The translations under genes and the position numbers were made by a program. A DNA stretch of 64,000 nucleotides from Roridomyces roridus (taxonomy: Eukaryota; Basidiomycota; Agaricomycetes; Agaricales; Mycenaceae): positions 372,001 through 436,000 of the forward strand of contig JARKIF010000025.1 in assembly GCA_029378245.1 (NCBI GenBank), given 5' to 3'. The notes under the pieces are model-generated. The model saw nothing but the letters and a program-made list of their open reading frames with translations. It had not been told where the DNA came from and made no database searches. Positions 2,458-48,158 of this stretch are shown piece by piece. Every line of letters starts with the position of its first letter. Position 1 is the first letter of the stretch.

Positions 2458-3058
2458 CGTCCATTCTGTGACTTGTCTGAATCTCGAGCCCGCCCTATTT
2501 CGACTTGAGGGGTTCTTCCTCTTAGAGTGTTTGTGGATTGCGCTCGCACCATGGTGGCAGAAAACAAACACGGAGTCAGCAGAGGGTTGGGAGGATGCCG
2601 AGGCCACCATCAGCCCGGGCGGCAGCCTCGGCCCCCGACGCAACACAGGGTTTCAGCGCGGACCCCAAACCATTAGGAGTTGTCGACGACGCATCCGCGC
2701 AGGAACCCCAAACACCCTAGGAGGAGGACAACAGATGAAGATGTTGGGATTTACGCCGTCAGCGTGTTGATCCGTGTTGAACTGATTCCAAGTTTGCAAT
2801 CGCAAGCCAGTTAAGGTAAGATGCGTTAGGGCAAACGGATGCCCAACGCCTACATTTCAGCAGGCTTATATACTACTTTACAATGTAACTAGAATGTTCT
2901 ACAAAAATCTAAGAAACTGTATCAGTCAGCAAAAGGGAATATTCCAGAAGGTTCTCGAGGGTGGCGAAGCATGTCATGCCAGAAACCCAAATTCCCAACA
3001 GAAGATGACTCACGGAGGCACACAGCATGAACAGCAACAGCAGTGTTATGAGTACAAA
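2458..3058. other. No supported gene
   Basis: Intergenic DNA between the inverted MITE pair and the minisatellite. Short overlapping ORFs on both strands lack any recognisable feature. Confidence 0.35.
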
Positions 3059-3560
3059 CCACAAACTTGATAAACAGAGCCACACGCGGCGGGGTCAAAA
3101 ACAGAACCGCACGCGGCAGGGTCGAAGACAGAACTGCACGCAGCAGGATAGCAGAAACCGCACGCAGTGGGATAGCAGAGCAGAACCGCACACAGCGGGA
3201 TAGCAGAACAGAACCACACGCAGTGGGATAGCAGAACAGAACCGCACGCAGCGGGGTCGAAAAAAAACAGAACTGCACACGGCGGGATAGCAGAACAGAA
3301 CCGCACGCAGCGGGATAGCAGAACAGAACCACACGCAGTGGGATAGCAGAACAGAACCGCACACAGCGGGATAGCAGAACAGAAACACACGCAGTGGGAT
3401 AGCAGAACAGAACCGCACACAGCGGGATAGCAGAACAGAACCACACGCAGTGGGATAGCAGAATAGAACCGCATGCAGCAGGGTCGAAAAACAGAACCGC
3501 ATGCAGCGGGATAGCAGAGCAGAACCGCACGCAGCGGGATGGCAGAACAGAACCGCAACA
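3059..3560. repeat. 28-bp minisatellite
   Basis: About 17 tandem copies of a 28-bp unit, consensus CGCACGCAGCGGGATAGC followed by AGAACAGAAC. Occasional variants carry GGGTCGAAAAA in place of the GGGATAGCAG core. Because 28 is not a multiple of three, a stop-free unit gives long ORFs in all three minus-strand frames. Those ORFs are artefacts. The array decays into looser GCAGCGGGTCCAGAAGACAG-like copies up to about 3730. Confidence 0.9.
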
Positions 3561-3730
3561 GTGGGATCACGCGCAACGCACATTCAGAAAAACAGAGCCG
3601 CTACACGCGGGTTCAGAAGGCAGAGCCGCAAGAGTGGGAACAGAAAACAGAGCCGCAGCAGCGGGTCCAGAAGACAGAATCGCTACGCGCGGGATCGAAA
3701 CAAGAGGAGAGACGAGTCGCGATCAGACAG

Positions 3731-9290: not shown

Positions 9291-12200
9291 ATGAAGGCGG
9301 CTATTGTGCTTGCTTTTGTGTTATCTTTGACGACTTTGGCCGTCGACGCAGCGCCTCGGGATACCAATGCCCGGCGTCTTGCTCGCGGTCTTCCTCCCCT
9401 CCCACCTGTTCGTCGCAAGCCCGGTGCGCCTCTCCTTGCCTCATCCTCTGCTTGACACTAAGCTCTATCTATTCAGGTGCGAAACGCATCCAGGCGTCGG
9501 CGACTCCATTCCAATGCGCGGCCAAAAAGAATTTTTGCTGCGACAATATCGAGGCTTCGAGCAGCGCTGATGCCAGCCACTACCTCAACGGTCTCGGGAT
9601 TCCATCCAACAGTTATGGGGCGCAGATTGGTACCGGGTGTGTTGTGATGACGGGGGATTCTTGGTGCGTCGCCTAAGATTTCCTCCCTCTTGTTTGATGC
9701 CTATTGGTGAACGAATAGCTCGTCGGATAGCCGTCCTGCGACTTGCTGTGGCAATATTATGGGCCCGGATCTCGTCGGTATTGATTGTGCTCCCGTCGTT
9801 GTTTCCTCGTCTTCGTCCTCGCATCCGGCTTCGTCGACTTCTGCTACTGCACGCTCGAGTGCTAGCTCGTCTGCATCTTCTGTACGCTCCTCCTCCGTCT
9901 CTGTGTCTCATACATCCAGCGCCTCGTCGGTGGGACGCTCTAGCGCGTCGTCAGCGTCTGGTCATGCCAGCGGCTCGGCCTCGTCTGTGATCCGCTCGAG
10001 CTCTGCGCCTGGATCTTCTGCAGCGCGGTCGAGTGCTTCATCGGCGTCGACTCGGAGTTCCTCGGCGGCTGCTTCCTATCACACCAGCAGCTCCTCGTCC
10101 GTGGCTCCCTCTTCCCATGCAAGCTCCGCCTCTTCTGCATCTCGTGCTTCCAGTAGTGCGAGTGCCTTGTCTGCCTCCTCAGTGCATTCAAGCGGTTCAT
10201 CTGCGTCGGCGCGCCCTTCGAGTGGCTCGTACTCGGCGTCGGCATCGTCTGCGCGTGCTAGTAACTCTGCGTCCTCTGCAGTTCACTCGAGCGTGTCCTC
10301 GGCGTCGGCTCCTTCCTCGAGTAGTGTGTCAGTCTCGCGTGCCAGCAGCGTCCATTCCAGTTCGGTATCCTCGGCATATCATTCCAGCGCCAGTGTTTCT
10401 GCTTCTCGGCACAGTAGCATCTCCTCAAGTGGTAGCGCCTCGGCCTCGCGGGGTAGCAGTTCCATGTCTATCTCTGCTTCGCGGGCAAGTAGCTCGGGCT
10501 CATCTACGGTTCACACCAGCGCTTCGTCAGTATCCCTCCGTCCGTCGATGAGCCCTTCGTCCTCGCGGGCCAGTAGCCTCAGCTTTGCTTCTTCCTCCCG
10601 CGTATCCTCCTCGGCCATCTCCGCCTCTCGTACGAGCAGCGTCTCTTCCGCACCCTCAGCATCGGCGACTGCATTCCAATGCGGGTCAAAGAACAAGTTC
10701 TGCTGCTCCAACGTCGAGGCTGCTAACAGCGCCGACGGTCTTGGCGTCCTCAACGGAGTTGGGTTGAACCCTGACAGCTGCGGGGAGGAAATTGGGACTG
10801 GGTGTGTGCCGATGGTTGGGGGCTCTTGGTGCGTTGATTCTTTAATTTTTCGTTTCATGAGTAATTGATTTTGGATTCCAGCTCTCCGGGAACGACCCCC
10901 GCTGAATGTTGTGGTAATACGGTGGGACCAAATAAAGTGGCCATCGACTGCACGCGCGTACCTGTTTCTTCTTCAGCCTCGCGGACGGCTTCCTCGACTT
11001 CCACTTTGCCGACCGCCTCGTCCAGTGCGCGGAGTTCTGTATCCGCAGCCTCGGCATCATCGGCATCACTCCGCCCGTCGAGCAGTACCGTTTCGGCTTC
11101 TCGTGCAAGTGGCTCATCGTCGGCATCTGGTTCACAGGCTATCTCGGCATCGGCCTCTTCGGCTTCGATTCGCTCCAGCAGCCTGGCGTCTCACCCCAGC
11201 TCATCGGCATCTTCGGCGGGATCCGGGTCACATGCCAGCAGTGCTGTGTCACCGTCGGCATCATCACGTGCAAGTGCCGCCTCTTCTTCTTCTGCGTTGT
11301 CGTCTCGTAGCTCCAGCGCGTCAAGCAGCGTCGCGTCGTCTCATGTCAGTGGTTCGGTTTCTTCTGCGTCTCGATCCGCATCAGTCTCTGCGAGCAGTGG
11401 GCGGAGCTCGGCTGCCGGTGAGTATCTTTCGTTTTTAGCTTTGGATCTGTTGAAGTAATTCTTCGTAGGCTCTTCCTCTGTGCAATCACGCTCGAGTGGT
11501 GTATCGTCGGCGTCCTCCCACGGATCAATTACTAGTTCGGCGTCGTCGAACCCGAGTAGCTCAATTCACAGCTCGGCTTCCTCGGCGTCTGCTGCTTCTC
11601 GTGGCTCTTCAGCGGGTGAGTGTCTCGTATTCTTCATATCCATTCCGTCACTAAATAATTTGCGATTAGTATCGTCTTCGGCACGCCCAAGTGCCAGTAG
11701 CGTCGTTTCCTCGGCACACGCTTCTGTATCTTCTGCCTCTGCCTCGAGTTCCAGTCGTATCTCCTCTGCTGGTACGTATACCACCCTTTTGGACCGTTTG
11801 GTTTTAAATCAACCTTCGTGTAGGATATTCTTCCTCTTCCCCGCACTCGAGATCGAGCTCCGTCCCAAGTGCAAGCAGCTCAGCGGTGTCTTCTGCCTCT
11901 GGCTCCGTCTCCGCTAGTCGTTTGAGTTCTGGTGCCTCCTCTGCTAGCGCTCCGCATTCCAGTGGCTCTGCATCCTCGGTATATCCTTCAGTGTCCCGCT
12001 CGTCGGTGATTTCGTCCAGTAGTGGAAGAGGTTCGAGCTCCACGGCTGGTGCGTATTGCTTTCTTTCCTCCATTGAATGTGATCATTGAAATTGTTTGTA
12101 GGATCTCCTGCGTCGTCCCGTGCGAGTAGTTCTCCGTCACCCTCTCACTCTGGGTCGGCTTATTCGAGTAGCGCTCGGAGTTCCTCTGCTAGTGGTGAGT

Positions 12201-15200
12201 ATCCTTTTCTGCCGCCCATCTTTCTAATTTCAACTGATGGATGTGTTTTAGGGTCGAGTGGCATGGCGAGTTCAACGAGTCTCCGTCCATCTTCGACTTC
12301 GGCCCACCAGTCGAGTAGCAGTGCTCCGGCCTCGTCTCGTGCCAGCAGTTCGGTGCCCCATTCGAGTAACTCGGCGTCAGCTTCCGTCTCTCACTCTGCC
12401 TCTGTTTATTCGAGCTCCGCTGGTATGAATTTTATCCGTTTCCCCGACTTTTAAATTGCGATATGAACGTATTTGCAGGATACTCCTCTCAATCCCGGGC
12501 TAGTTCCAGTCTTCGCTCGTCCTCGGCATCGTCGGCGTCTACTCGCCAGTCGAGTAGCAGCACGTCTGCTTCATCTCGCGCCAGCAGTTCCGTGCCTCGT
12601 TCGAGTAGCTCGGCGTCAGCTTCCGCCTCTGGATATTCCAGCAGTGTTCGCAGCTCCTCGACCGGTGGGTATCAATCCTGACTTGAGCCACGTATAAATT
12701 TGAATGACTTCTTGTAGGATCTTCCGCCAGCGGAGTTTCCAGCAGTTCGAATTCAGCACGCTCGAGTAGCGGGTCTTCGGCATCAGGTGGAGTCAGCAGC
12801 TCCGCCTCTGTTTACCGGTCAGGCAGTGTTTCGGCATCTCGTTCCAGTGGCTACGCATCTGCTTCCTCTGCTTCTCACAGTTCGGTGCATTCAAGCGGAG
12901 CGTCAAGTTCCATGCCCCACAGTTCGTCAGCTTCAATTTCCCCGAGCAGTGGCCGTAGCTCGGCAGTCGGTGAGCAATCTTTCTTGTTAGTTGAGTCGGC
13001 TGGAGTTGATCAACCCATATCCAGCGTCGTCTTCTGCACACCCGAGTAGCGTATCGAGCTCTGCATGGCGTGCAAGTAGTGTTTCGGCATCTCAGGGTAG
13101 TAGCTCCGGCTCGGGGTCGAGTAGCGCTGCCTCATCGGCGTCTCGATCAACGTCCGTTTATTCGAGTACGTATTTCGTTCGTTGTGCCAACCGACATCTG
13201 ACGCTGAATGTTTCACAGGCTCATCCGTTTCTCGGTCGGCTGTGGAATCTTCAAGCAGTGCGAGGAGCTCGTCTGCTGGTGGGTATCGTTTTTGGATATT
13301 TCTCAGTGTGACTCAATTTTGTGTGTAGGATCCTCGTCTGCATTCTACACCTCGGTTTCTCAACCGTCGTCAACGGGACGCAGCAGCAGTTCAGTTTCCT
13401 CGGCATCTTCGGCTTCGACACGCCAACCTAGCAGTTCGGTCCTGCATTGGAGTAGCCTGACGTCTTCTTCTTCGTCGGCCTCCTCATCGCGCTCGGTGGG
13501 ATATTCGAGCAGTGTGCATAGCTCGTCTGTTGGTGCGTATATTTATTTATTTTATTCCGATATTTGCGGTTGAACTTTTGCTGTTAGGATCTTCTTCGGC
13601 ATCTTCGGCATCTTCGGCGTCGACGCGTCAATCGAGTAGCGTTTCTGCCTCTCATGCAAGCTCGAGTAGCTCAGTACAATCGTCATCTTCGGCTCGCCCG
13701 TCGAGCAGCAGTGCATCGGCGGCTTCCCATGCGAGCAGTTCCGTCTCGGGTTCGATGCCCACGCGTAGTTCGTCAATCGGTGAGGCATCTTTCCAAAATC
13801 CCCATTGAATGCGTTGACCTGGGATCCTTTGTAGGATATTCGTCCTCTGTCTCGCGTGCAAGTAGTTCAGGCTCTGTCCCTGTTTCTTCGAGCATAGCGC
13901 GTAGTTCGTCGTCGTCTGGTAAGTGGTCTTTGAGATAGTTTCCAGCCTTTTCGATTCTAAATGATTTATTTGTCTGCAGCCTCTCGCTCCAGCGGTGTTC
14001 CCAGCAGCTCGGGCGTATCCTCCTCTTCCCACTCAGCTTCTGGGTACTCGAGCAGTGTGCGTAGCTCCTCGATCGGTCCGTATTCTATTTATTACTGCGA
14101 TGCGGGATTCTGAATTTTCTCAATCCTTTCTAGGAGCGTCGGCCCGTCAGTCTAGCAGTGGATCCGTATCTTCTCACGCCAGTAGTTCTACATCTCAGTC
14201 GGCGTCTGTTTCCGCGAGTAGTGCGCGTAGCTCATCCGCTGGTGAGTCAATCTTTTGAGATTCGTTTATTTTCATTCCAATTTTTTCCGTAGCTTCCACG
14301 TCAACTCCATCGCGATCGAGTAGTGTACCCAGCAGTTCATCCATCTCTGCTAGCAGTGTGCATAGTTCGTCGTCTGGTGAGTTGTCTTTCCTTTGGAGTG
14401 GTTGGAATGATGTTGATTCCAACTTGTGTACAGGCTATTCATCATCCGTCCAATCCCGCTCCAGTAGCGTTCCCAGCAGTTCTACGCATCAGCCCAGCAG
14501 TTCAGTTTCGCATACGAGTAGCCCGGCGTCCTCAGCTTCATCTACCTCGCGCTCTGTGGGGTCTTCGAGCAGTGCGCGTAGTTCGGCTGGTGAGGATTTT
14601 ATCTTCTGTTCTTTGGATATGTCTTACTCTTTCTAGGATCTTCCTCCGCATCGTCTGCATCGGCACGCCAGTCAAGCAGTATCTCGGCCTCTCACTCTGT
14701 GTCGGCGTCACGCGCGAGTAGCTTGGTTTCCTCAGTGTCTGGCCGCTCTTCGAGTAGCGCTTTGTCCTCGCGGGCCAGTGCTTCTTCATCCCGTGCAAGC
14801 AATGTCTCTTCCGCACCATCCGCATCGGCGACTGCATTCCAATGCACCTCGAAACAGAAGTTCTGTTGCTCCAATATCGAGGCTGCGAAGAGTGCGGATG
14901 GCCTTCGCGTGCTCAACGGAGTTGGATTGAGTCCTGATAGCTGCGGGGAACAAATTGGTTTTGGGTGTGTTGCCATGTCTGGGAGTTCTTGGTACGTTGA
15001 CGCTTCATTTTTTCTTTACGTTCTTGAACTTAATCCGCGATTTCAGCGCAACGGGGACGACGCCTGCCGAATGTTGTGGAAATACGGTGGGCTCGAATAA
15101 AGTGGGCATCGACTGCACCAGCGTGCCGGTTTCATCCTCAGCTTCGCGTACGGGTTCCGCGTCATCCACCGCCTCGGCCTCGCGCTCCATTAACTCGGCG

Positions 15201-18200
15201 CAATCATCCGCGTCATCAGCGAGTGCACGGAGCTCTGCATCCTCAGCATCGGCATCATCGGCATCACTTCGGCAGTCCTCGGTTTCGAGGGCGAGTAGTA
15301 TCTCGCCGTCTGCATCTGCTTCTGTGTCGCGGAGTTCCAGCCCGTCGGCATCCTCGGCATCGCTCCGCCAATCCAGCAGTGCGATTTCAGCTTCAGGTTC
15401 GAGGGCCAGTAGTGCCTCGGCGTCTGCATCGCGGAGTTCCTTCTCGTCTGCATCGGCATCTCTTTCACGTGCTAGCTCCGCCTCTTCAGCGAGTAGTGGG
15501 GTATCAGCATCGCGTGGAATTAGCTCCGCAGCTGGTAAGTCAACATTTTGAAAATTTCTTCTCTCAATGCTGCTTGGATGCTGATGGGTTCGAATTCTTA
15601 GTATCCTCCTCTGTGCATTCAAGTACCGCGTCAAGTTCGGTGTCGGCGCGCCAGTCGAGTGTTTCTGCCTCGCGTTCGAGCTCGGTTGGTTCCACGAGCA
15701 CTGGGCGCAGTTCTTCGGTTCAAGGTCAGTCATTCAAATTCCAGAGTTGTTATTGGTTTCTCATCGAGTTCTGTGCAGGGTATTCGTCCTCGTCCCGCTC
15801 CAGCGGTGTACCAAGCAGCTCAGGTCGTCCGAGCAGCGCGTCCTCTGCATCTCGAGCATCTTCGATGTCGTCGGCCTCCATCCGCCCGTCAAGTAGCAGC
15901 GTCTCCTCAGCTTCAACTCAATCTCGTGTGAGCAGCTCTAACAGTATGCCGCGTAGTTCTTCTGGTGAGTTATTCTTGAATTCAGGTTCGTTGAGGTGTT
16001 GTTGACTCGAAATTTCTTTAGGGTTCTCTTCAGCTGGACCTAGCAGCTCAGCGCACTCGGCGGCGTCCTCTGCGTCGGTTTATCAATCGAGTAGTATCTC
16101 GGCTTCGCGTGCAAGCAGTGTCTTGGCATCGTCGTCTGCTTATCGGTCCGCGAGCTCATCTGCAGGTGCGTATACTTTATAATGTGCTCTCTCCGATGTT
16201 GACATGAAATTTAGGATTCTCACACTGGAGCGTGTCCAGTGGAATTTCATCAACCGCGTCTCGTGCGAGTAGCTCTGTGCCTCACTCGAGTAGCTCGTCG
16301 TTGGCGTCTGCATCTATTTCTATTTCGCGTTCGGCGCCGGCTGCTTCGAGCAGCGCGCGTGTTTCGTCTGGTAAGCGTTCTTATCTTGATAGGATTTGTT
16401 TTCCTTATTGACTGTTTTGTAGGATATTCTTCTGCCCATGCGTCTAGCAGCGTTTCAGCATCAAGTTCACGTGCATCGAGCAGTGGTTCAGCATCTCGTG
16501 CCAGCAGCGCTAGTTCCTCCGCGTCTGCATCTCGCACTTCTTCGAGCAGTATCCATATCAGCAGCTCGTCGGCGTCGCGTACTAGCTCAGCAGTCCCGTC
16601 GTCATCCGCTGCGGTCTCTTGTAACGGGCAGTCCACGTTCTGCTGTGACTCGATCGAAATTCCTACGAGCGCGCATGGAAGTAGCTGTCTCGCCAATGCG
16701 GGGATTTCGTCTGCAGTGAATGTTGGGGCGAACATTGGTATTGGTTGCGCTTCACCCTCGACTGTTAATGGCGTGCAGACTTGGTGAGCTTCTTTCTCAG
16801 ATTCCAAGGGATTGAAACTGACGGCGGAGTAGCTCTGCGTACAAAACCCCTTTGAAATGCTGCAAGACGTTGTTCGACGCGCCTCTCTTTGGTGGAATTG
16901 GTATTGATTGCACGGCTGGTGAGTGTGTCGGGTCATCTTCCCAAAATTTATTGACACTTCGTCAAGGGACATTGTCGAGCGCGTCCGCGTCTCATTCATC
17001 CACTCGGACATCTAGCTCGTCGTCTTCTAGTCGAACATCAAGCAGTTCGGCATCGACATCCCGAACGTCATCAATTTCCCACGTCACGTCATCGGCCGGC
17101 TCTGCGTCTTCCTCTCATGTTCCCTCGTCGAGTAGCGCAATTCGCTCCTCCAGCGCGTCGGTTGCGTCGCGCAGCAGTGTCGCTGGTTTGTTTTGTGACC
17201 TCTCTCGTTGTTTCCAGGACTTATGCCACCGTCTAGCGTCATCTGCGTCGAGATCAAGTCTACCCTCGAGTAGGTCCGTAGGATCATCGTCTTTGCGTGC
17301 CAGCAGCTCGGCAGCGTCGTCTCGTGCCAGTAGTATTTCCTCAGGTGTGTGACCGTGCGATATTGGAGGGTATACTTATCTGACCAAAACTTGCAGCTGT
17401 ATCGTCCCGCTTGGCGTCTTCCGTGAGTAGCGCTCGGGGTATTTCGTCCAGTGCACCATCTGCATCGGCCTCCCTTCACTCGAGCGCGTCGGCTGCTTCC
17501 CAGTCCACCTCGGCTTTGCACTCCAGTAGTTCCGTATCGGTGTCTCGTGCGAGTAGCTCCGCAGGTGAATATTCCCCGGACTTTTCAGATCAGAATTTTC
17601 TGACGTCTTTATCAGTCCAATCTTCACACTCCGCCTCCGCCTCTTCTGCCCAGTCCTCGCGCGCTGCGTCTTCATCGGGGCACCTTTCGTCCAGTAGCTC
17701 GGGATCAGTCTCAACGTCCTCGCATCCCAGCAGCTCTGCGTCTGCAAGCAGGAGTGGATCTAGCTCTTCTACGTCCACTTCTCATGGCAGCAGCGCCTCC
17801 AGCCATTCAAGCGGGTCGTCGACTGTGTCAAGGGCATCTTCGACCTCGGCGTTGTCCCAACGCCCAAGTAGCTCTGCATCAGCGTCCGCTAGCAAGAGCT
17901 CGTCGACTTCTGCCCACTCAAGTAGCGCCATCTCGAGCGCCAGTGGAGCCCGCAGCTCAAGTGCTGTCTCCTCCCATCTCAGCAGCGCCTCTTCCAGCGC
18001 AGCATCAGTCTCCGTTCGTGCCAGCGCGTCGTCTGCTTCCTCACACGTTAGCAGCTCGGTGGTGCGTGGGTCCTCATCCTCGGTTCTCTCAAGCGGCGGA
18101 TCTTCCTCGGCTCGTGTTAGTAGCTCTGGCTACTCTTCCCATGCCAGTGGTGCTTCCAGCTCGGCCTTCCATTCCTCAAGTGCTGCTCCATCGTCAGCGC

Positions 18201-21200
18201 ACTCTGCGAGCTCCTCTTCCCCTCGTTCGGGTAGCAGTGGCAGCTCCCCCTCCCCGCGTTCCAGCAGTGTACCGGCCAGTTCAGCCACGTCAGCTCACTC
18301 GAGCGGTGGCTCCTCGGCCTCTTCGGCTCGGGGTAGCAGCAGCGCATCTTACGGTCGCTCCAGTAGCGCATCCTCGTCAGCGAGGTCGAGAGGCGTGTCC
18401 TCCGTTTCGGCGTCCATCCGGCCTAGCAGCAGTGTCTCGGCGCGTTCGAGCGTTTCCGCTCCATCAGCCTCTGCTCGTTCCTCTGCCCACCCCAGCAGCT
18501 CTGCATCTATATCGGCATCCCACTCCTCATCTCGCGCCTCTTCAGCTTCCGCCAGCGCTTCCTCCACGCCGTTCCAATGCACTGCCAAGCAAACCTTCTG
18601 TTGCTCGACCTTTGAACGCGCCAAGAGCACGGAAGGACTGAGCATTTTGAGTGGCGTCGGCATGCATCCCGATAGCTGTGGAGAGCAGATTGGAACTGGA
18701 TGTGTGCCTGTTTCGGGTGGTTCCTGGTACGTGTCTTGCCCGTGTTCTTGTCAATTTGCTGATCCTTTTTTTTCCCCAGTTCTTCAGACAAGATTGCCGC
18801 GCAATGCTGTGGCCAGACTGTCGGCTCCAACCTTGTCGGTATTGATTGCACGCAGGTCACGCTCTCGTCCGCGCACTCTTCGACCGTGGCTTCCTCGAGC
18901 TCACGGGGAGTCTCGGCTTCCTCGGCGCGCCCTTCTAGCTCTGCGTCATCCGCCACCGGCAGCTCTGGTGTTCCCCGCAGTTCTTCGTCGTCGGCGCGTG
19001 CGAGCAGCTCGTCTCCTTCAGCCTCTCCTCGGAGCTCCTCCGCAGGTGTGTATCTTTTCTTTTTGTCTGAAATTCTGAAGATTGAATTCGCTTTTCAGGG
19101 TATTCATCTATTCATCTGAGCAGCAGCTCCGCATCCTCTGTCCGCGGTTCCAGTAGCCCCGCGCCTTCCTCTTCGCACTCTTCCTCGGTGGTGCGCTCCA
19201 GTAGTGCGGCGTCGAGCAGTGCAAGTGGAGTCCGTGGCTCGTCTTCGGCGGCTGCTTCCTCTGCTTCACGGGGAAGCTCTGCTTCCTTGTCTTCTTCGCA
19301 CGGAGTCAGCTCGGTCTCAGTCTCGGCGTCCCATCCCTCGTCGAGTGGGACTCCTCGCCCGAGTTCTAGCGCTGTATCATCCTCCAGCGTGCATTTGAGC
19401 TCGGCAACGGCCACTTCCTCTGCTGCCCGCCCCAGCTCCAGCGCTCAGGCCTCCTCGAGCATTCGTTATAGCTCCGTAGCGGCTTCTTCGTCGGCAGCGC
19501 ATTCCACCTCTGTTCCTTCCTCGTCTCCTCGCCCGAGTTTTAGCGTTACATGGTCCTCCAGCGTGCATTTGAGCTCAGTGGCGCCGCCTTCTTCGTCTGG
19601 CCACCCGAGCTCCGGTGCCCAGGCCTCCTCGAGCATTCGTTATATCTCTGTACCGTCTTCTTCGTCGGCAGCGCGTTCTAGCTCTGTTCCTTCCTCCTCT
19701 CCTCGCCCGAGTTCTAGCACTGCATCATCCTCCAGCGCACATTTGAGCTCAGTGTCGCAGTCTTCCTCTGCTGCGCGCTCTAGCTCCGCAGTACCTTCAT
19801 CCTCGGCGACTCGTTCGAGCTCTGCGGTGCCATTGTCGTCTGCCCATGCGAGTGTGGTGGCATCTTCGGCGTCTCATTCTAGCTCTTTCGCAGCCTCATC
19901 CTCCCCGGCTCGCTCCTCCTCTGCAGCGCGTTCGAGCACCGTTTCCTCATCCTCAGCTCATTCCAGCAACGCTGCATCATCCTCTCATTCGTCGTCAGCC
20001 CACCCGAGTAGCTCCATCGCGCGCTCGTCTTCGGCTTATGCCAGTGCTTCGTCTACGCCCTTCCAGTGCGCAACCGCTCAAAACTTCTGTTGCTCGACTT
20101 TCGAGTCGGCCAAGAGCACTGAGGGGCTCAGCATCTTGAGCGGTCTGGGTCTACACCCCGATAGCTGTGGCGAGCAGATTGGGACGGGATGTGTACCTGT
20201 TTCCGGAGGTTCTTGGTGCGTCTTTCGTGTTACTGCAGGTTACTTCATATTGATCTCGTTCTTTGCAGCTCGTCGGATAAGATTGCTGCCAAGTGCTGTG
20301 GGAATACCGTCGGCTTTGACCTCGTCGGAATAGACTGCTCGTCTATCACGCTTCCGACCGCTCACTCGTCGACGGTGGTCCCCTCGAGTTCGGCTACCCG
20401 CGGGTCTAGCTCGTCTTCGAGCCATCTTAGCAGCGCCTCGTCTGTCGTCCGCGCGTCTTCGGCTGCAGGTGTGTCTTTTCGGCTTGGCCCAAATATGTAT
20501 TACTGACCTTGCATTCCAGTATACTCTTCCGCATCATCTGCACGCGCCAGTAGTGCGGTCCCGAGCAGCGGGCATTTCAGCAGCTCGATGGTGCCGGCGA
20601 CGTCTTCCTCATCTCGGGGAGGTAGCTCTACGTCTTTGACGGCTCGTTCATCGTCAAGCGCATCTGCTGCGATACCTGCGGCGTCTTCAAGTGCTCCACA
20701 TTCCTCCAGCTTGGCTTCCTCGTCGAGCCAAGTGCGTTCAAGCTCGGTATCTTCCAGTGGGCATTCCAGCGCCGCTGCGCCTTCGTCTTCCGGGGCACAT
20801 TCGAGCTCTGCGGTCCCATCTTCCTCTGCCCACCCGAGTTCGAATGTCCAGGCCTCCTCGAGCATTCCCTATAGCTCCGTCGTGGCTTCCTCGTCGGCCG
20901 CGCGTTCTAGCTCTGTTCCTTCCTCGTCTCCTCGGCCAAGTTCTATCGCTGCATCGTCCTCGAACGTGCATTTGAGCTCGGCTACGGCCACTTCCTCTGT
21001 TGCCCGCCCGAGCTCAAGTGTCCAGGCCTCCTCGAGCATTCACTATAGCTCTGTGGCGCCATCCTCATCGCCAGCGCGTTCTAGTTCCGTGGCTCCTTCC
21101 TCGTCTTCTCACGCGAGTTCTAGCGCTGCATTATCCAGCGTGCATTTGAGCTCAGTGGTGCCGTCTTCCTCTGCTGCCCGGCCCCGCCCCAGTCCCCAGG

Positions 21201-21828
21201 CGTCCTCGAGCATTCACTATAGCTCTGTGGTGCCTTCTTCCTCTGCCCATCCCAGCTCGAGCGCCCCGGCCTACTCGAGCTCCCATTACAGCTCCGTAGC
21301 GGCTTATTCATCGGCGCCGCGTTCTAGCTCTGCAGTCACCTCATCCTCGGCCGCTCGTTCTAGCTCTGTGGCGCCTTCCTCCTCTCCCCGCCCGAGCTCT
21401 AGTTTCGCAGCCCCCTCTTCCTCTGCTGCTCGCTCGAGCAGTGCTGTGCCTCCAACGTCTTCTTCCGTCACGGCTGCGCACACTACGACCACATCCACAA
21501 CGCAGGCACATACCACCACCACGACGACAACGCCGCACACTTCGGCATCCGCATCCACTGGCGTGCCGCACTACAAGCGGGATTCGACTTGCACGGCGCG
21601 GACGACGTATTGCTGCCAAAACGTGTCGGATGACGGTGTCGGTGTCGAGTGCTCGGCGGCAGCAATGATCCGTGGGATTGCAAGATGGTGAGTTTCCATT
21701 GCGAGTCGTTCTATGCCCTTTTGCTGATACGTCTATTTTAAAGCCTGTCCGACATGCAGCCCTTCTCGTGCTGCTCTGAGCTTGAAGATGACGATTCGAC
21801 AGGGCGTGAATGTGTGGCGGCTATGTGA
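9291..21828 (+). CDS. Giant secreted protein with seven hydrophobin-like modules
   Basis: Thirty-seven exons spliced by eye total 10,608 nt and close in frame to about 3,535 residues. After a signal peptide (MKAAIVLAFVLSLTTLAVDA) comes a basic segment, NARRLARGLPPLPPVRRKP. Seven modules follow with the hydrophobin order C, CC, C, C, CC, C. Module 1 is C-x6-CC-x32-C-x7-C-x8-CC-x12-C and ends GPDLVGIDC. Hydrophobins are small secreted proteins (~100 residues) that assemble at air-water or wall surfaces. Linkers are Ser/Ala-rich with few other residues, as expected for O-glycosylated wall or surface stalks. No GPI signal or transmembrane tail is seen; module 7 ends the protein. An intron splits the fifth core cysteine codon (TG|C) in every module. 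Linker exons 5-20, 23-26 and 29-31 are phase 1-1 cassettes. C4-C5 and C5-C6 spacings fall slightly outside the class I consensus, so 'hydrophobin-like' is safer. Transcript evidence is needed to prove a single mRNA. Confidence 0.8.
9477..9805 (+). other. Hydrophobin-like module 1
   Basis: Exon 9477-9663 carries TPFQCAAKKNFCCDN and ends in TG of a Cys codon. Exon 3 starts at 9719 and supplies the C, then SSDSRPATCCGN and DLVGIDC. It has exactly eight cysteines. The residue where modules 2, 3, 5 and 6 have an extra Cys is Tyr here (NSYGAQIGTGC). Confidence 0.75.
10660..10955 (+). other. Hydrophobin-like module 2
   Basis: The first half (TAFQCGSKNKFCCSN, then PDSCGEEIGTGC) ends exon 3 at 10828. 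The second half starts at 10882 with TTPAECCGN and NKVAIDC. It has nine cysteines, the extra one being in PDSCGE. An uninterrupted Ser-rich linker of roughly 280 residues precedes it. Confidence 0.75.
11418..14636 (+). repeat. Linker region built of tandem phase 1-1 exon cassettes
   Basis: Between modules 2 and 3, 17 introns of about 45-65 nt separate 16 short exons of 60-252 nt. All have lengths divisible by three and all start and end in phase 1. Most begin with an acceptor ending TAG or CAG followed by GATCTTC or GATATTC-like sequence, and end AGCTC..GCTG before GTGAGTAT. Each encodes Ser-rich text with periodic Arg (ASSRASSSV style). The similarity of exons, introns and boundaries indicates repeated duplication of an exon-intron unit. 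Confidence 0.8.
14820..15115 (+). other. Hydrophobin-like module 3
   Basis: Exon 14637-14991 ends with AFQCTSKQKFCCSN and PDSCGEQIGFGC, and TG of the fifth core Cys. Exon 15047-15534 continues with TTPAECCGN and NKVGIDC. It has nine cysteines and is closest in sequence to module 2. Confidence 0.75.
16615..16918 (+). other. Hydrophobin-like module 4 (divergent)
   Basis: Exon 16423-16783 contains VSCNGQSTFCCDS, GSSCLANAG and NIGIGC. Exon 16833-16918 has LKCCKTL and GIGIDC. The extra Cys sits at a different place from that in modules 2, 3, 5 and 6. A 48-nt in-frame segment (16919-16966) has donor and acceptor sites and is treated as an intron; if retained it would add 16 residues without changing frame. 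Confidence 0.65.
18560..18860 (+). other. Hydrophobin-like module 5
   Basis: TPFQCTAKQTFCCSTF, PDSCGEQIGTGC and VSGGS close exon 17616-18726. Exon 18780-19045 opens with the split Cys, then SSDKIAAQCCGQ and NLVGIDC. It has nine cysteines. Modules 5 and 6 are near twins and probably duplicated most recently. Confidence 0.75.
20050..20345 (+). other. Hydrophobin-like module 6
   Basis: TPFQCATAQNFCCSTF and PDSCGEQIGTGC close exon 19099-20215. Exon 20269-20468 continues with SSDKIAAKCCGN and DLVGIDC. It has nine cysteines. The linkers on both sides use SSSARSSSV-type repeats with PSS and HLSS variants. Confidence 0.75.
21585..21828 (+). other. Hydrophobin-like module 7 (short, C-terminal)
   Basis: STCTARTTYCCQNV, then GVGVEC and MIRGIAR, with the TG|C intron at 21688-21743. 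The last exon gives MQPFSCCSELEDDDSTG, then REC and VAAM, then stop. The spacing is C-x6-CC-x11-C-x11-C-x8-CC-x12-C. The loop between cysteines 3 and 4 is about 20 residues shorter than in the other modules, and a Thr/His-rich stretch precedes it. It may be a diverged or partly degenerate module that caps the protein. Confidence 0.65.
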
Positions 21829-23090
21829 TACTGATATTTTTACCTTGTCCAGACGTGCTCACGGTTTGCAGTATGCCTCCGCGTCGCCGCTGGATCTAAG
21901 CGCCAGTGCTTGATATCAAATGTCCTGTACGAATAGATTCCTGTGTGTATTATACTTAGATTTCCTGTATCACATTCTGCTTTTCAACGTCTCTATCATG
22001 GTGTGAGTGGCCGAAGAGTTGAAGGCACTGAGTGCAGACAAACTTGTAGTGTACAAGCTTGGTACAAGCGGGTGAAAAAACGACAGAAAGACTTGAACCA
22101 CTGAATTTCTAATAGGTGCGTTCAAAGTTGACGATGATGACCCGGTGTGGAGATTTCACACCGGATTTTGCTCAACGGGTTTTTCGCTCACCGACTTTTT
22201 ATCCGGTGAGCGAAACCCGTTGAGGAGGCCCAAACCCGTTGTGATGGCAAGTGCATGTGCATCGCCAAAACCGGGAAAAACATATATGGCCTGATATGGC
22301 CATATATGGGCCGCGAGGGTTGGGAGGCTGATCGGCTGATGAACTTTCTACTATCTGGGCTTTTTTTTTTTCTTTTTTTTTTTGGGAGCATTATACAATG
22401 TATAGAAGTCTGCAGAAGCATTCTAGTATACATCCGCTGGTGTCACTGGAAATAAACAAACCAGTATATAAGCCGGGAAGATGATCCGCTCAGGAGGAAA
22501 TGCCTTCATGCATGGTAGAACCAGTGTGGGACTCCTGCGTGTGTGTTTTAACCAATACCTTCTCTCAAGGGCAGAATACCCACTAAAACCCCCTGTATTT
22601 TAATCCAATCATCTGGCAGTGAGTCTTCATCCAGCAGGACTCCACTCCAAGTATTTAGGACCGCCTGTTTGTCAAAACTCATTGTAACAAATCTCTTTTT
22701 ATCTGTCAGAATACGGTCCCTTTGGAGTGCACTATTTACAAGTTTTAACCAGCGGTTATGTACTTCAGATTGGGTCGCAATTTTATCTGGGTTACGGATG
22801 ACCCGATCAACTCTGAGATGCCAGATCAAATGCCATTGATGACGCTGACGATGAACTAACACTCAAAACCCAACACAAAACGTGAGGGCAGGAACGTATA
22901 GAACAACGGCGGCTTGTTTGTGCGAGGAGAGCTTCTCAGTGATAGGACACTTTGAGTCTGACTTCGACGACGACAACGGCAACTGATGATCCAAGCGAGT
23001 ATAGCAGCGAGACGGGTAGGCTCGAGCTGAGCTGAACTATAATCCAAATCCAACCAAAACTCTCAACACAAACTCAATCCCAACCAAATG
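21829..23090. other. Intergenic downstream of the giant gene
   Basis: No gene is supported. The stretch holds a long hairpin (22172-22223), a run of TATGGCC inverted motifs near 22280-22310, and poly-T tracts. Short minus-strand ORFs near 22550-22860 have no recognisable features. Confidence 0.4.
22172..22223. repeat. Near-perfect 50-bp hairpin
   Basis: TCAACGGGTTTTTCGCTCACCG is mirrored after a loop of about 10 nt by CGGTGAGCGAAACCCGTTGA, with a single bulge. A second small palindrome (GGTGTGGAGATTTCACACC) lies just upstream. It is probably the core of a foldback element; a role in 3' end formation is possible but unsupported. Confidence 0.5.
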
Positions 23091-27211: not shown

Positions 27212-30200
27212 CTACTTTTTGGAGGAAGGAAATTTGAATCTGGAAAACAGTTTGGAGAGCCTCTTGACACTGGTGTGTTTAAATTCTGTATCCTTGGCTT
27301 TACCCGAAGCATCTCTGGTGGTCATTAAGTCTTTGGTAGCCCTGAGAGTATCTGGATGGTCGGCGCCTAGGACATCCCTGCGTTTGGCAACAACCTTGAG
27401 TTGAAGATTTTCTGCTTCTTGGTGCCGGCCGGTGCTATAAAGTGTGAGAGCAAGGTTGGCCATGGCTCTCAGGGTGTCAGGATGATCATCGTCAAGGAGT
27501 TTCTGACACTGTTCAAGCACAATAGTTTCCAGCGGCTCTGCCTCTTGGTACCGTCCCAGTTTCCAGTATGTGCCTGCAAGGTTGGCCATGGCTCTCAGGG
27601 TGTCTGGATGGTCCTCACCAAGGAGCCTCTGACGCTCTTTGAGGACAGAAATTTCGAGTGGCTCTGCTTCTTTGTACCGACCCAGTTGCACGTATGTGGC
27701 TGCAAGGTTGGCCATGGCTCTCAGGGTGTCAGGATGGTTGTCACCAAGGAGCCTCTGAGACTCTTTGAAGACACAAATTTCCAGGGGCTCTGCTTCTTTG
27801 TACCGACCGAGTTGCTGGTATGTGTTTGCAAGGTTGGCCATGGCTAACAGCGTGTCAGGATGGTTGTCACCAAGGAGCTTCTGACGCTCTTTGAAGACAC
27901 AAATGTCCAGCGGCTCTGCCTCTTGGTACCGTCCCAGTTTCCAGTATGTGCCTGCAAGGTTGGCCATGGCTCTCAGGGTGTCTGGATGGTCCTCACCAAG
28001 GAGCCTCTGACGCTCTTTGAGGACAGAAATTTTGAGTGGCTCTGCTTCTTTGTACCGACCCAGTTGCACGTATGTGGCTGCAAGGTTGGCCATGGCTCTC
28101 AGGGTGTCAGGATGGTCCTCACCAAGGAGCCTCTGACGCTCTTTGAGGACACAAATTTCAAGGGGCTCTGCTTCTCTGTACCGACCCAGCTGCCCGTATG
28201 TGACTGCAAGGTTGGCCATGGCTCTCAGCGTCTCAGGATGGTCATTGCCAAGGAGTTTCCGGCGCCCTTGGAGCACAGACATTTCGAGGGGCTCTGCTTC
28301 TCTGTACTGACCCAGCTGCCCGTATGTGACTGCAAGGTTGGCCATGGCTCTCAGGGTGTCCGGATGGTCGTCACCAAGGAGCCTCTGACGCTCCTTGAAG
28401 ACACAAATTTCGAGGGGCTCTGCTTCTTTGTACCGACCCAGCTGCTCGTATCTGCTTGCAAGGTTGGCCATGGCTATCAGGGTGTCAGGATGGTCCTCAC
28501 CAAGGAGCCTCTGACGCTCTTTGAGGACACAAATTTCGAGGGGCTCTGCTTCTCTGTACCGACCCAGCTGCCCGTATGTGACTGCAAGGTTGGCCATGGC
28601 TCTCAGGGTTTCAGGATGGTTGTCACCAAGGAGCCTCTGACGCTCTTTGAGGACACAAATTTCAAGGGGCTCTGCTTCTTTGTACTGCCCCAGGTGCCAG
28701 TATGTGGCTGCAAGGTTGGCCATGGCTATCAGCGTCTCAGGATGGTCATTGCCAAGGAGTTTCCGGCGCCCTTGGAGCACAGACATTTCGAGGGGCTCTG
28801 CTTCTCTGTACCGACCCAGGTCCCTGTATGTGGTTGCAAGGTTGGCCATGGCTCTCAGGGTGTCAGGATGGTCATCACCAAAGAGCCTCTGACACTCTTT
28901 GAGGACACAAATTTCGAGGGGCTCTGCTTCTTTATACCGACCCAGCTGCCCATATGTGACTGCAAGGTTGGCCATGGCAAGCAGCGTCTCAGGATGGTTG
29001 TCACCAAGGAGCCTCCGACGCTCTTTGAGGACACAAATTTCGAGGGGCTCTGCTTCTTTGTACCGACCCAATTGCCGGTATGTGGCTGCAAGGTTGGCCA
29101 TGGCTCCCAGGGTGTCAGGATGGTTGTCACCAAGGAGCTTCTGACGCTCTTTGAAGACACAAATTTCCAGAGGCTCTGCTTCTTTGTACTGACCCAGCTG
29201 CCTGTATCTGGCTGCAAGGTTGGCCATGGCTCCCAGGGTGTCAGGATGGTCATCACCAAGGAGCCTCTGACACTCTTTGAAGACGCAAATTTCCAGGGGC
29301 TCTGCTTCTTTGTACCGACCCAGATGCCCGTATGTGGCTGCAAGGTTGGCCATGCCTCTCAGGGTGTCAGGATGGTCCTCACCAAGGAGCCTCTGACGCT
29401 CTTTGAGGACACAAATTTCCAGGGGCTCCGCTTCTCTGTACCGACCCAGCTGCCCGTAAGTGACTGCAAGGTTGGCCATGGCTCTCAGGGTGTCAGGATG
29501 ATCATCGTTGAGGAGTTTCTGACGCTGTTCAAGCACAATAGTTTCCAGCGGCTCTGCCTCTTGGTACCGTCCCAGTTTGCAGTATGTGCATGCAAGGTTG
29601 GCCATGGCAAGCAGTGTGTCAGGATGATCATCGTTGAGCAGTTTCTGACGCTGTTCAAGCACAATAGTTTCCAGCGGCTCTGCCTCTTGGTACCGTCCCA
29701 GTTTGCAGTATGTGCCTGCAAGGTTGGCCATGGCAAGCAGTGTCTCAGGATGGTCCTCACCAAGGAGCCTCTGACGCTCTTTGAGGACACTAATTTCGAG
29801 GGACTCTGCTTCTTTGTACCGACCCAGTTGCCGGTATGTGTTTGCAAGGTTGGCCATGGCTAACAGCGTGTCAGGATGGTCCTCACCAAGGAGCCTCTGA
29901 CGCTCTTTGAGGACAGAAATTACGAGGGGCTCTGCTTCTCTGTACCGACCCAGTTGCCAGTATGTGGCTGCAAGGTTGGCCATGGCTCTCAGGGTGTCAG
30001 GATGGTGCTTTCCATGCAGCTCCCTCTGTCTCTGCAGATTCAGCTCATACAAACCCTTTGCTTGCTCAAATTTGCCTCCGTCAGAATACATCCGTGCATA
30101 TTGGCTCCAGAACTGAGAATTCAGAACAGTGAAATCTGGGACAAGCATATTGACATGTTCAATCATCCTGATCCTGTCCAAATATGCGTCAGGGCCAACA

Positions 30201-31773
30201 TCTATTGACATCCCCACCACATTTGCCATGCATGCCCGTGTCGTTACTGCATCAGGTAGGGTGCTTGAGCACCACAGATGCACAAGTGGATGCATATCTA
30301 GTGTCTCGCTGGCTTCCTGGCTCTCAATCAGTGAATATTCCTCAATCTCCGCCACAATTTTCCTGAAATATTGTCTTGACCAACTTCCTGAACCTGAGAC
30401 AAAGTTTTGGAGAAATTTCCTGGCTTCCTGCATTGACTCAGTTTCATCCCCCTCATTGTTTACAATCCACTCTGTGGCCTTGACAAATATTGACTGGGGA
30501 ACATTGCTGTGGTGCAATACAGCACAGAATTGGAGAAACTGGGCAGCTACCGGGCTGAGTTCCCCAAAGCTGATCTGCCAGGTTGTATAGACAGTCCATC
30601 CATAGTTATCAAGAGTTTGATCAGGGTGCTGTCGCAACAACTCTTCTTTGTTCTGCCTGTAGATTGACAGATAATCCCTGAGACATTTGAATTTCGCAAT
30701 ATAAGCCCCAGCTTGCAGAATTGCAAGAGGCAGGTATGACAGCTCCTGCGTATCTTGATTAAGCATGATATCATTGTCCAAAGAACCTGGGACCTACTTG
30801 CACAATGTCCACAGCCAGTTTATAGTTTTCATCTGTGTGCTCCTTCACTGCTCTTGCAAGAAGGAGAAGAGCAGCATTTTCTTGATCCAAGTCTCCCACC
30901 TGTGAGTGAGAAGCAGGCCCATAAACAGCAAGTTGTGGGTTTCGGGAAGTTATGATAATTTTTCCATGTGTGCACTGTGGCAAAAATGGCAATAACTTCA
31001 GTTTTGGATCATCTGCATTGTCAAACAGCAGAGTCCACTCTTTATGTTCAGAAATAAGCCACTGGAGGCCTGCTTCTGGTGTTTGGCCAAACCTCTGAGA
31101 AATTGCGATGTTCATGAAGGAGTTATTCAGAGCTTCAGAGGAACTGGCATTCAGGAAGAATTGCCTTGATACCCTGAAAAGGTCGTCAATCATAAAGAAA
31201 TTACTCCTTCACATACATACTCATCAGATGTTTCCTCAAGAAATTTCAAAGCTATCTGAGTCTTCCCAGAGCCACCAAGACCATAGAGAACAAAAATCCT
31301 TCTCTTCTTGGGTTCTTGGGAAAAGCACTCTTGCATCTTGTCAAGAATCTCCTGTCGTCCCTGAAAAATGTGAGATGCTGGAGGACATCGGACAAGTGCC
31401 AGAGCAGTGTGGCATTGTTCCTGAGCTGTGATGTTTGATTACTATTAGTGGGCCTCAGACATATTTATTTGGTACATACTGATGAGTTCAATTTGACCTT
31501 GCTGTCTTGGCTCTTGACCATGTGAATAAACACTGTGTACAGTGAGATCTGGCTCTGCAGAAGCACTCGGGACTTACTTCAAGTTATTGATCCGACTTTG
31601 ATAAAACAGGGCTCCCCCGTCACCGGGACCTCCTCCTCCCCCGTGTTGGTCACCTACTCCACCGGGACCACCGGTGCCACCTGAAAGTCAGCCGAGTACT
31701 GCTCATTTGATTTGTGCTCACCATGGACATGAAAATGTGTCTCTGTCTGTGTATCAACAGTGGGCAAAGACAT
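27212..31773 (-). CDS. NLR-type NB-ARC protein with about 21 TPR repeats
   Basis: Six exons (31722-31773, 31578-31680, 31480-31532, 31221-31425, 30798-31173, 27212-30745) join in frame to 1,440 residues. The N-terminus is short and Gly-rich (HGGTGGPGGVGDQHGGGGG). Next comes CPPASHIFQGRQEILDKM, then the P-loop VLYGLGGSGKTQIALKF. Kinase-2 WTLLFDNADD, the sensor-like GKIIITSRNP and the helical YLPLAILQAGAY follow. The C-terminal half is a solenoid of kinesin-light-chain-type TPRs: 21 clear 42-residue units (HPDTLRAMANLAATYWQLGR, then EAEPL) plus a degenerate last one. Fungal NLRs of this architecture are thought to act in non-self recognition or regulated cell death, with the repeats as the sensing surface. 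No N-terminal effector domain is recognisable. Repeat units are nearly identical, implying recent amplification or gene conversion. Confidence 0.85.
27255..30010 (-). repeat. 126-bp tandem coding repeat (TPR units)
   Basis: About 21 direct copies of a 126-bp unit within the last NLR exon. Each contains GGTACAGAGAAGCAGAGCC-like sequence and encodes one 42-residue TPR. Several neighbouring units are almost identical at DNA level. The unit has no stop on the opposite strand, which creates a 667-codon antisense shadow ORF. Confidence 0.85.
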
Positions 31774-40228: not shown

Positions 40229-43200
40229 TCACACAATGATCGGACCCATGTGGTCGTCCGTCTCGTCTCCCCACCCAGCAATAGCACCAGCCGCACCCTC
40301 CTCATCGTCATCGTCAGTGCGGCGCGGTGTGAACGGCGTGAAGACATCCTCGGGAATGACAGTGCCGTCACCCGTGTCCTCGCCATCCGCCATTTCCACG
40401 TCACCAGCGGCATCCATGTCGGTATCATCGGCGATCGCAGCAGCATTCGAGCCCTGGAATCCAGCCGTTGACGTAGACGCGCCGCTGGTCTCAGCTCCCA
40501 CGGCAACCGCGGCAAACCGTGCACGCTTCGCCTTCTCCCGAGCTCTCCCAGTCCGACCCCTGCGGCCACTCCCGAACCGCTTGCCTCCCTCGGTGGGCCT
40601 AGGTCCTCCGCGCTTGCCGAAATTGTATCTATTTTCTGCATCGGACGGTGAGTACCATCCATACACCGAGCGCGGGATTCTCGTACCGTTGTGAGGTTTT
40701 CCCTTCGAGCGCACATACGAAGCCGGCCGATGCTCCGGGCGACGCGCAGCCAAAGTCGACACCAAGGTCGCAAAAGTACTCTCGCTGAAACTAGCGCCGG
40801 TATCAGAAGTCGCCGGAGACACAGGAACAGTCATCGCAGCAGGAGCAGGCATCGGGGCAGGAGTAAAGTGGACAGGTGCGTGAGTCGTTGCAGCGGTATG
40901 CGTCGCAGCTGACTCTTCATCAGAATTGTGTGCCGTCGCGCAGCAAGACCAGCACTCACCCGTCGGATGTCCCTGCGACTCGAACCATTCTCTCTCACGC
41001 CTCGGGAAGTCGGAGGGGATTGGAGCGTTCGGGTGACGCTGCCGGTAGTAATGCAAGTACGCTTCGGTGGGGGGACCCGGGTGCGGGCCATGCCCGGCCA
41101 ACCAATACATCATGGCGCGGTGATATATCTCGCAGTCGGCGATGTCGGAAGCGGTGAAGCGGGTGTCAACGGCCATCTTGCAACGACAGCAGGAGTGGGG
41201 GTGGATTTGTGAGGCTCTCTTCGTATGTCCTCCTCCTTTTAAGCCCTCTCTTGTTCTCGCTTTGACACCGCCAATCTTATCTGAATCATTTTTCAGATTG
41301 ACTCGTACTGATGCCGCGCGCACTTCCTCATCAAAATCTGGTCGAGTTCCTGAGCCTTTTTTCAAATTGGTTATCTTCTCAATCCCCATGGCTTCCAGGT
41401 ACGATTTCAGTGGCTCAAGGTGTTTCACCTCGGCGTACTGAAGCCAGGTTATATCTCCAGACTTCCATTTCACTTCAAATAATGCATCCCTTCCTTGTCC
41501 GCTGTGCGACAAAATCCTGTCAACGGCCCACTCACTCGGGACCGCTCCAAATCCGGGCAGCTGACTCAATTGCCTTCCGGGGAATCTTCGATCGTCGTTC
41601 GGTACGTGGATTCTCAACAATGATGCATGAAAAGAAGCATTAATGCCTCTTTGTTTTAACTCTTCAGATAAGCCCAATTGGTACGACGATCCTGATTCCA
41701 GAATTCTGATAATCGGAAACGGACCAATATATTTTGGTGTCAGCTTACGTGCTCGCCCCTTGGGCAATTTCAAATTCTGCGTTGATAGGTACACAAGGTC
41801 TCCGACCACAAATGGTGCGGGACGCCGTCTTCTATTGGCTTGTTGTGTTTGCTTAACCCTCTTCGTTATTATAGCGTCGTGAGCCATCATTATGGACTCT
41901 TTTATCCGCTGGGCGAACTTTCTAACACCAGGATAATCACTTGCATCATTCCAGATCATCGGCCTTGGAATTCGACCGTAATTCAAGAAGAATGGGGAAA
42001 ACCCCGTCGTGTCAGAGCGCGCCGAGTTCATTGCGAATTCAATTGCCGGTAAGCGAACTGCCCAGTCCTTCTGATTAATTGCTACACACTGCCTCAGCAT
42101 CTGGGTCATTGTCCTATTCGCACGTTCCGTTGCCCCATCCGTCTGCGGATGGTACGCTGAGGAAAATCTCAAGTCCGTATTGATCAAGGTGTGTAATTCC
42201 CGCCAAAATGTACTCGTAAAGAGAGAATCTCTATCGCTCACGATTGATTCAGGTAGGCCATGTAGTTTATACACCACCTCGAAGATCACTTCGGCCATGT
42301 CCCTTGCCTTGTAAGTTTGTTTTGTTGGAGTCAAGTGTACCATCGACGTCAAATGATCAATCACTACGCAGATCATGTCGAACGCCCCATTTCTGGTTTC
42401 AGACGCCGGCAGCGGACCCACAAAATCAATTCCGATCGCCTGCCACGGGCGCCGAGGTACCTGCAACGTGCGTAGTAGCCCACTAGGCTTCTGCGTCGAA
42501 GACTTACTCATTGCACATAGCGAGCAGCTCTCGCAGAACGCTGCCACATCGCGAATCATGTCGTTCCACCAGACATGGTCTCGGAGGTACGTCAGCGTCT
42601 TTCTAGCGCCCAGGTGCGCAAGTATCGAGTGTGCCTGACCTATTACCAAGGCACGCATCCCGATCCCATCTACTACCACATTCGGAATGCATAGCAATTC
42701 CTCGTCGGCGCGCTTCATGTACATCAAGCCGTCTCGCATCACAAAGTCTTTATAATGCGACGGCGCGCGCAGAATTCTCTGGAAGAAATTATCTTGATCG
42801 TACGTTCCTTTCAGAACTTCTGGGAATGTAAACTGTTGAGATGTAGATTTCACGACATCTACCAGACCAGGACCAGATGGCTCGGCATTCGGAGTTTCAG
42901 TCTGCTCAGTCAGATCCTCCGTGCCCGATTCCTCGTCATTCACTGACTCCATTTGTGTCAGGTCTAGTCCTTCAACCAAGTCATCTATCTCCTGACTCGG
43001 TTCAACCTCTGTGTCCAATACATTCGCCGGTTGCGAGAGCGGCTCCTTGGCCACTGTTGGTGTCTTCTTCACCGCTTGGTGAGTCTGTTTACTATATGTG
43101 ACTCGTGGCTTACTCTTCAGCCTGTCAGATCGACGGGGACCTTCGACCGCGCAGATCCACAACGCGCTCCTGTCCGTTAGGACTGGTGCCGATACATTGA

Positions 43201-48055: not shown

Positions 48056-48158
48056 AATTTATGCGCTTCTATCAAATCGGGTGATCAGTCCGATTCAAAC
48101 AAGGAAAAAAATTGAACTCAAAAAAAATGTGAGTCTTCGGAGTTCTTGAAGTAGAAGT

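Follow-up and report, generated by a model that had tools for sequence, protein, structure and literature searches.

The window analysed here, 64,000 nucleotides (nt) of Roridomyces roridus DNA, comes from contig C168 (372001-436000) in the genome searched (90.8 Mb, 501 contigs). On its plus strand we found a gene running from an ATG at 9291 to a TGA at 21826-21828, whose spliced frame encodes seven hydrophobin-like modules (M1 to M7) joined by six long Ser-rich linkers. The gene model was obtained by six-frame reading and a dynamic-programming splice model, with five introns set by hand, and consists of 36 exons (10,656 nt) encoding 3,551 residues between one ATG and one stop. All 35 introns carry GT-AG borders; 28 of them are in phase 1, namely one before M1 and all 27 linker introns, and the other seven are in phase 2, one per module. 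A preliminary description of the locus had proposed one frame of about 3,500 residues with seven modules, as our model has, and a signal peptide, which is encoded at 9291..9350 (MKAAIVLAFVLSLTTLAVDA, from the translation, with the cleavage site placed by eye). Its count of 37 exons and 10,608 nt was revised, and one intron of 51 nt (17565-17615) is optional in that its retention preserves the frame and the model with free choice leaves it in. All 62 Cys of the spliced protein lie inside the modules and none in the six linkers, and inspection of the 3,551-residue protein by eye found no membrane or glycosylphosphatidylinositol-type tail.

It appears very improbable that neighbouring genes, or a locus in decay, were misread as one gene. 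A degraded-looking relative does exist in this genome (L023, C79:248k), but exon 3 (9719-10828) spans the end of M1, the entire linker 1 and the start of M2, and therefore M1 and M2 are not separate genes. The uniform intron borders and the single phase of all linker introns also speak against this alternative. Moreover, an unforced exon chain built under the same intron rules scored +1660 with 34 introns on the real strand, while seven of nine control stretches of equal length (the reverse complement of the gene stretch and four other stretches on both strands) yielded no chain and the remaining two scored -518 and -277, with 84 and 92 introns. Since the score was fitted to the composition of the gene itself and the controls started and ended at arbitrary bases, the real stretch running from ATG to stop, we take this control as supporting only.

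We then compared the gene with a second copy at C346:104541-117307, which has 37 exons and 3,609 residues and is open throughout, again with one ATG and one stop in frame. It carries the same seven modules with their introns, and all 62 Cys are kept. Over the five longest aligned pieces, the DNA of the two copies is 84-95% identical, and 2.5 kb of upstream flank fall within the first of these pieces. Because this flank aligns and several other contigs are also paired, the C346 copy is probably the other haplotype rather than a duplicate. Indels in multiples of three accounted for 46 of 56 in the paired exons compared with 2 of 17 in the introns, and all 34 paired exons were equal in total length or differed by a multiple of three, which argues further against decay; the second-copy model was built in a frame-aware manner, which favours the exon result. 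A first projection onto the second copy, which was not frame-aware, placed 15 of 17 exons in frame before stopping, and at the sites of the other two the second copy has additional exons. Module introns were fixed when both copies were modelled, and none was forced in the chain test. Taken together, as judged from the sequences of both copies, this is a single real gene, open over its full length, for which the C346 copy outweighs the chain control as evidence.

Hydrophobins are usually small water-repelling proteins of about 100 residues. The modules of the R. roridus protein, all on the plus strand, lie at 9509..9803 (M1, residues 56-135, intron 9664-9718), 10674..10966 (M2, residues 426-505, intron 10829-10881), 14837..15131 (M3, residues 1490-1569, intron 14992-15046), 16614..16926 (M4, residues 1971-2058, intron 16784-16832), 18572..18864 (M5, residues 2556-2635, intron 18727-18779), 20061..20353 (M6, residues 3017-3096, intron 20216-20268) and 21584..21825 (M7, residues 3490-3551, intron 21688-21743). 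Against the Pfam family PF01185 (cut-off 23 bits), M1, M5 and M6 scored 30.1, 24.8 and 27.5 bits. M2 and M3 gave full-length matches at 19.7 and 18.4 bits and M4 a nearly full-length match at 18.2 bits, all under the cut-off, and M7 reached 9.6 bits (E=2). When M7 was compared with a profile of M1-M6, the score was 15.2 bits, a value equalled by 2 of 1000 Cys-preserving shuffles and by none of 1000 full shuffles. M6 matched the PDB entries 5w0y, 7s7s, 2nbh and 6e98 at E 0.001-0.008 and 6e9m at 0.55, and all PDB matches at E<=10 were hydrophobins, both for M6 (5 sequences) and for the seven-module profile (5 sequences). We take these hydrophobins to be of class I, and the alignment to them takes in the entire module, Cys7-Cys8 included.

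The order C-CC-C-C-CC-C, claimed earlier for all modules, is held by seven of the seven if the additional Cys in M2-M6 are disregarded, while a uniform set of eight Cys is not: M1 and M7 have eight, M2, M3, M5 and M6 nine, and M4 ten. The Cys3-Cys4 spacing is 32-33 residues in M1-M6, inside the class I consensus of 26-39 given in the consulted part of PMC3879219, and 11 in M7, where this loop is short. Class II membership was rejected on a Cys1-Cys2 spacing of 6 and the Cys3-Cys4 spacing of 32-33 in M1-M6; M7 comes closer to class II in two loops (Cys3-Cys4 11, Cys5-Cys6 8). From these sequence features, the modules are of a class I-like hydrophobin type.

In addition, a phase-2 intron interrupts the Cys5 codon (TG|C or TG|T) in every one of the seven modules. 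The intron was found at the same base in five of seven single-module hydrophobin loci tested in the same genome (L004-L008, among which L007 and L008 seem to be one gene in two copies), and the test gave no match for L002 and L003. L001 was tested only with a stricter pattern, which matched none of L001-L008 because the readable ones have six Cys and a broken second doublet. The single-module hydrophobins of the genome have about 106 residues, and the spliced ones (L004-L008) have six Cys, lacking Cys1 and one Cys of the second doublet; six Cys are also present in the R. roridus database entry P0001. They thus differ from the seven-module protein in length and in having no linkers, while sharing an alignable core and the Cys5-codon intron. 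On this comparison, the seven modules and the single-module hydrophobins of the same genome share a common ancestry, of which the intron position is the strongest sign. The Pfam, PDB and intron evidence together uphold the hydrophobin-like modules of the preliminary description.

Several observations weigh against the reading of the modules as working hydrophobins. Only M1, M5 and M6 reach the PF01185 cut-off, M2-M4 fall under it and M7 is not recognised by Pfam. The Cys5-Cys6 spacing is 8 in all seven modules compared with 5 in the class I consensus (PMC3879219, in part). The grand average of hydropathy of the modules is -0.04 to 0.39, compared with 0.44 to 0.61 in four ordinary hydrophobins of the same genome, and it still falls inside the range of four solved hydrophobins (-0.11 to 0.60). 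Given this low hydropathy, the surface activity of the modules may be weak, and film formation by the modules is the most doubtful step of the mechanism proposed below. The modules might instead be Cys-rich knots in a structural wall glycoprotein whose film-forming activity has been lost, an alternative to which we give some weight but consider unlikely. The hydropathy, the non-canonical Cys spacing, the extra Cys and the scores of M2-M4 and M7 under the Pfam cut-off are all in its favour, but M1, M5 and M6 pass PF01185, and solved hydrophobins can be aligned over the full module with its Cys7-Cys8 part. Moreover, the modules are more constrained than the rest of the protein, with a ratio of nonsynonymous to synonymous change (omega, dN/dS) between the two copies of 0.149 for the modules (550 codons) and 0.379 for the remainder (2,844 codons). 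These values are rough, coming from two copies only; omega of single modules ranged from 0.08 to 0.48 on few changes each, and dS was uneven (0.05-0.06 in M1 and M2, 0.56 in M3).

The linkers, on the plus strand of the same spliced model, comprise 290 residues with 52% Ser (linker 1, 9804..10673), 984 with 53% (linker 2, 10967..14836, with many short phase 1-1 exons), 401 with 52% (linker 3, 15132..16613), 497 with 52% (linker 4, 16927..18571), 381 with 50% (linker 5, 18865..20060) and 393 with 42% (linker 6, 20354..21583, ending in a Thr/Ser-rich stretch). Their combined Ser/Thr content is 49-56% per linker, and their 2,946 residues include 1,496 Ser, 472 Ala, 171 Arg, 95 His, 2 Lys, 1 Asp and 1 Glu. 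The Ser/Ala linkers expected from the preliminary description are thus present, Cys-free and with 42-53% Ser, and the lengths of 120-950 residues given there were replaced by those measured. For the protein starting at residue 22, the computed isoelectric point (pI) is 11.4 and the mass is 334 kDa without sugars; a pI of 4-6 is reported for most hydrophobins in the consulted part of a 2025 survey (PMC12375992).

Four exons (E6, E19, A9 and A12) had no one-to-one partner between the two copies, and the lone status of E6 is explained by an intron since added to the other copy. The partnerless exons measure 84, 162 and 120 nt, each a multiple of three, and every one of them belongs to linker 2. 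Because they are in frame and all within linker 2, the linkers seem to change by gain, loss or splitting of whole symmetric exons. By eye, A12 matched the tail of E11, and A9 and A10 matched the two ends of E10; exon splitting or duplication is therefore possible besides loss.

In Kex2-processed repeat proteins, a dibasic site stands between the repeats. We found a Lys-Arg pair of this type at residues 47-48 (9482..9487, plus strand) before M1 and another at residues 3487-3488 (21575..21580, plus strand) directly before M7; both are kept in the second copy and may be cleaved. Outside the modules, dibasic pairs are confined to the first 48 residues and to residues 3487-3488, the latter being the sole such pair in any linker, and Arg-Arg is absent compared with 9.9 expected from composition, for which the repetitive sequence may account in part. 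Classification as a Kex2-processed repeat protein was rejected on this single dibasic pair, near the end of linker 6, across six linkers. The wider possibility, that the chain is a polyprotein precursor cut in the linkers to release single modules, with the linkers as mere spacers, is improbable in our view. The two Lys-Arg sites would suit it, and protease cleavage of polyhydrophobins is posed as a future question in the consulted part of PMC12375992. However, linkers 1-5 have no dibasic pair and the Kex2-type route could free M7 only, although other proteases are possible; an omega of 0.38 outside the modules and exon lengths that stay in frame also speak against it.

We further identified relatives of this gene in the same genome, where 12 regions and then 10 were read; those given here are a lower bound. 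They include three-module genes with a first-middle-last arrangement (C1 at three places, C246/C248 and C458/C312), two-module genes (C68/C449 and two places on C79) and, close to where C325 ends, a last module standing alone; C449 is known from search rows and C187 from a short locus. The relatives with two and three modules carry similar linkers. The degraded-looking relative L023 (C79:245001-252000), with a partner on C187, contains, among Ser-rich frames, a module of the first type whose Cys doublet is altered. The three-module model of C246 is approximate, its first module being mis-spliced there and reading with a GC-AG intron. The Cys5-codon intron is GC-AG in the first modules of L024, L025, L026, L027 and L036, which are three-module relatives, and GT-AG in L028 and L029. 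Among the first modules compared, an odd Cys was also found in C246/C248 and the three C1 genes, and was absent from M1, C458/C312, C68 and the first C79 gene.

A tree of the modules (84 columns, 27 rows, with C1b, C248, C312 and C325 omitted) is weak, with 5 of 24 inner branches starred. In it, M7 joined the last modules of the relatives (97/89, starred), M4 joined the middle modules of the three-module relatives (89/90, not starred), and M1, M2, M3, M5 and M6 joined the first modules (87/97, not starred), in a group that includes the single-module hydrophobins. The latter are placed next to M6, on a branch of great length, and nothing was drawn from this placement. With modest support, the tree suggests a first-middle-last plan in which the first-type module has been multiplied in the seven-module gene. 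When the genome was searched with the PF01185 profile, the seven-module locus was not among the matches listed, probably because introns split its modules. Fourteen among the 21 matches listed were on a single 562-kb contig, C279.

Elsewhere in the window, a 1,193-residue open frame on the minus strand (27215-30793) consists mostly of tetratricopeptide repeats (21 stretches of TPR_10), and a 2,609-residue open frame on the same strand (40232-48058) was assigned to a retroelement by a domain scan that found reverse transcriptase, RNase H, integrase and aspartyl protease. A repetitive, low-complexity stretch that has a strong A/T strand skew and is open in three frames occupies about 3049-3600 on the minus strand. 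Just downstream of the seven-module gene, at about 22140-22235, a short inverted repeat around CACCGG / CCGGTGAGCG was seen by eye and is possibly a small mobile element.

A protein database was searched among entries of 0.55-1.75 times the query length. None of the 26 candidates for M5 reached E<=10, and the seven-module alignment likewise left nothing at E<=1 from 208 candidates. A search with a single-module hydrophobin returned 502 proteins at E<=1, almost all from Mycenaceae, the family of Roridomyces, among the 120 listed. One single-module hydrophobin of the genome proved 99% identical to an R. roridus protein, with one surplus Ser in the query. Since mushroom proteins are present and the length window applied, these null results speak only against short or mid-length proteins with the module. 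One hydrophobin study admitted only 80-400 residues (PMC10820438, in part), and such long genes can therefore stay hidden.

By definition, a polyhydrophobin carries two or more hydrophobin domains on a single secreted chain, as the seven-module protein does. According to the consulted parts of PMC7827705, multi-domain hydrophobins of class II have 2-7 domains and 264-1,187 residues. CFTH1 of Claviceps fusiformis, CPPH1 of C. purpurea, CmQHYD of Cordyceps militaris and CEJ88606.1 of Torrubiella hemipterigena likewise place several domains on one secreted chain, and CEJ88606.1 has seven, as in R. roridus. These class II polyhydrophobins are ascomycete proteins, acidic in all cases but one, whereas the R. 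roridus protein is class I-like, basidiomycete, 3,551 residues long and of pI 11.4. Their spacers are Gly-rich and hydrophilic in CFTH1 and CmQHYD, in contrast to the Ser-rich linkers of 290-984 residues here, which do not match the Gly-rich (Gly/Asn, Gly/Asp) spacers of described polyhydrophobins; Gly-richness is not part of the definition. The 2025 UniProt survey counts 12 class I polyhydrophobins (11 tri-, 1 penta-), biased toward Fusarium, which likewise have several class I domains per chain, but three or five (PMC12375992, in part). Class I hydrophobins with five disulfides, or with long disordered N-terminal tails, are also in print in the parts of PMC7827705 and PMC12375992 consulted. 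The statement of the preliminary description that it knew of no equivalent goes too far in one point, as multi-domain hydrophobins are in print in these two sources; within the parts of the literature searched we found no class I polyhydrophobin this large, with long Ser-rich linkers, or named from a mushroom.

With moderate confidence, we propose that the gene encodes a secreted, mucin-like, cationic polyhydrophobin that anchors a hydrated surface coat. Animal gel-forming mucins carry Cys-rich domains between Ser/Thr-rich tracts, and the R. roridus protein has a like plan of small disulfide modules between long, potentially O-glycosylated tracts; this is an analogy of design, and no homology is claimed. 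The O-glycosylation, fibrous shape and bridging put forward in the preliminary description are conjectural. In the secretory pathway, the linkers would be O-mannosylated and become stiff, hydrated and positively charged arms. Kex2 would trim the N-terminus at residue 48 and may release the small M7 at residue 3488, whereas the other six modules, with no further dibasic position in the linkers, would remain on one chain. Through its modules, the chain could then be fixed at several points to hydrophobin films or to wall surfaces that are hydrophobic or face the air. In M2, M3, M5 and M6, the ninth Cys, which M1 lacks, might leave one unpaired thiol each, so that cross-links between chains are possible. 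A hydrated coat or gel anchored at the surface would be the outcome, for which the glutinous coat of the stipe is the obvious candidate site in Roridomyces.

R. roridus itself has a slimy stipe, and the link between the gene and this slime is conjectural, which counts against our proposal. In its favour, the congener R. pruinosoviscidus is described with a stipe that is viscid to glutinous (PMC12780892, in part). A bolder version, which we hold tentatively and regard as rather doubtful, is that hydrophobins here would have given rise to a gel-forming mucin, a disulfide-linked, O-mannosylated and cationic network that its modules fix to wall or air-water surfaces. This network would make up the glutinous coat on the fruit bodies of Roridomyces, and the gene family would have expanded to that end.

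Overall, the hydrophobin module appears in this genome as a building block, used in chains of two, three and seven with hundreds of residues between modules. If the proposed role is true, a fungus would have turned a surfactant into a mucin-like coat protein, and mushroom slime could be tested for its molecular basis.

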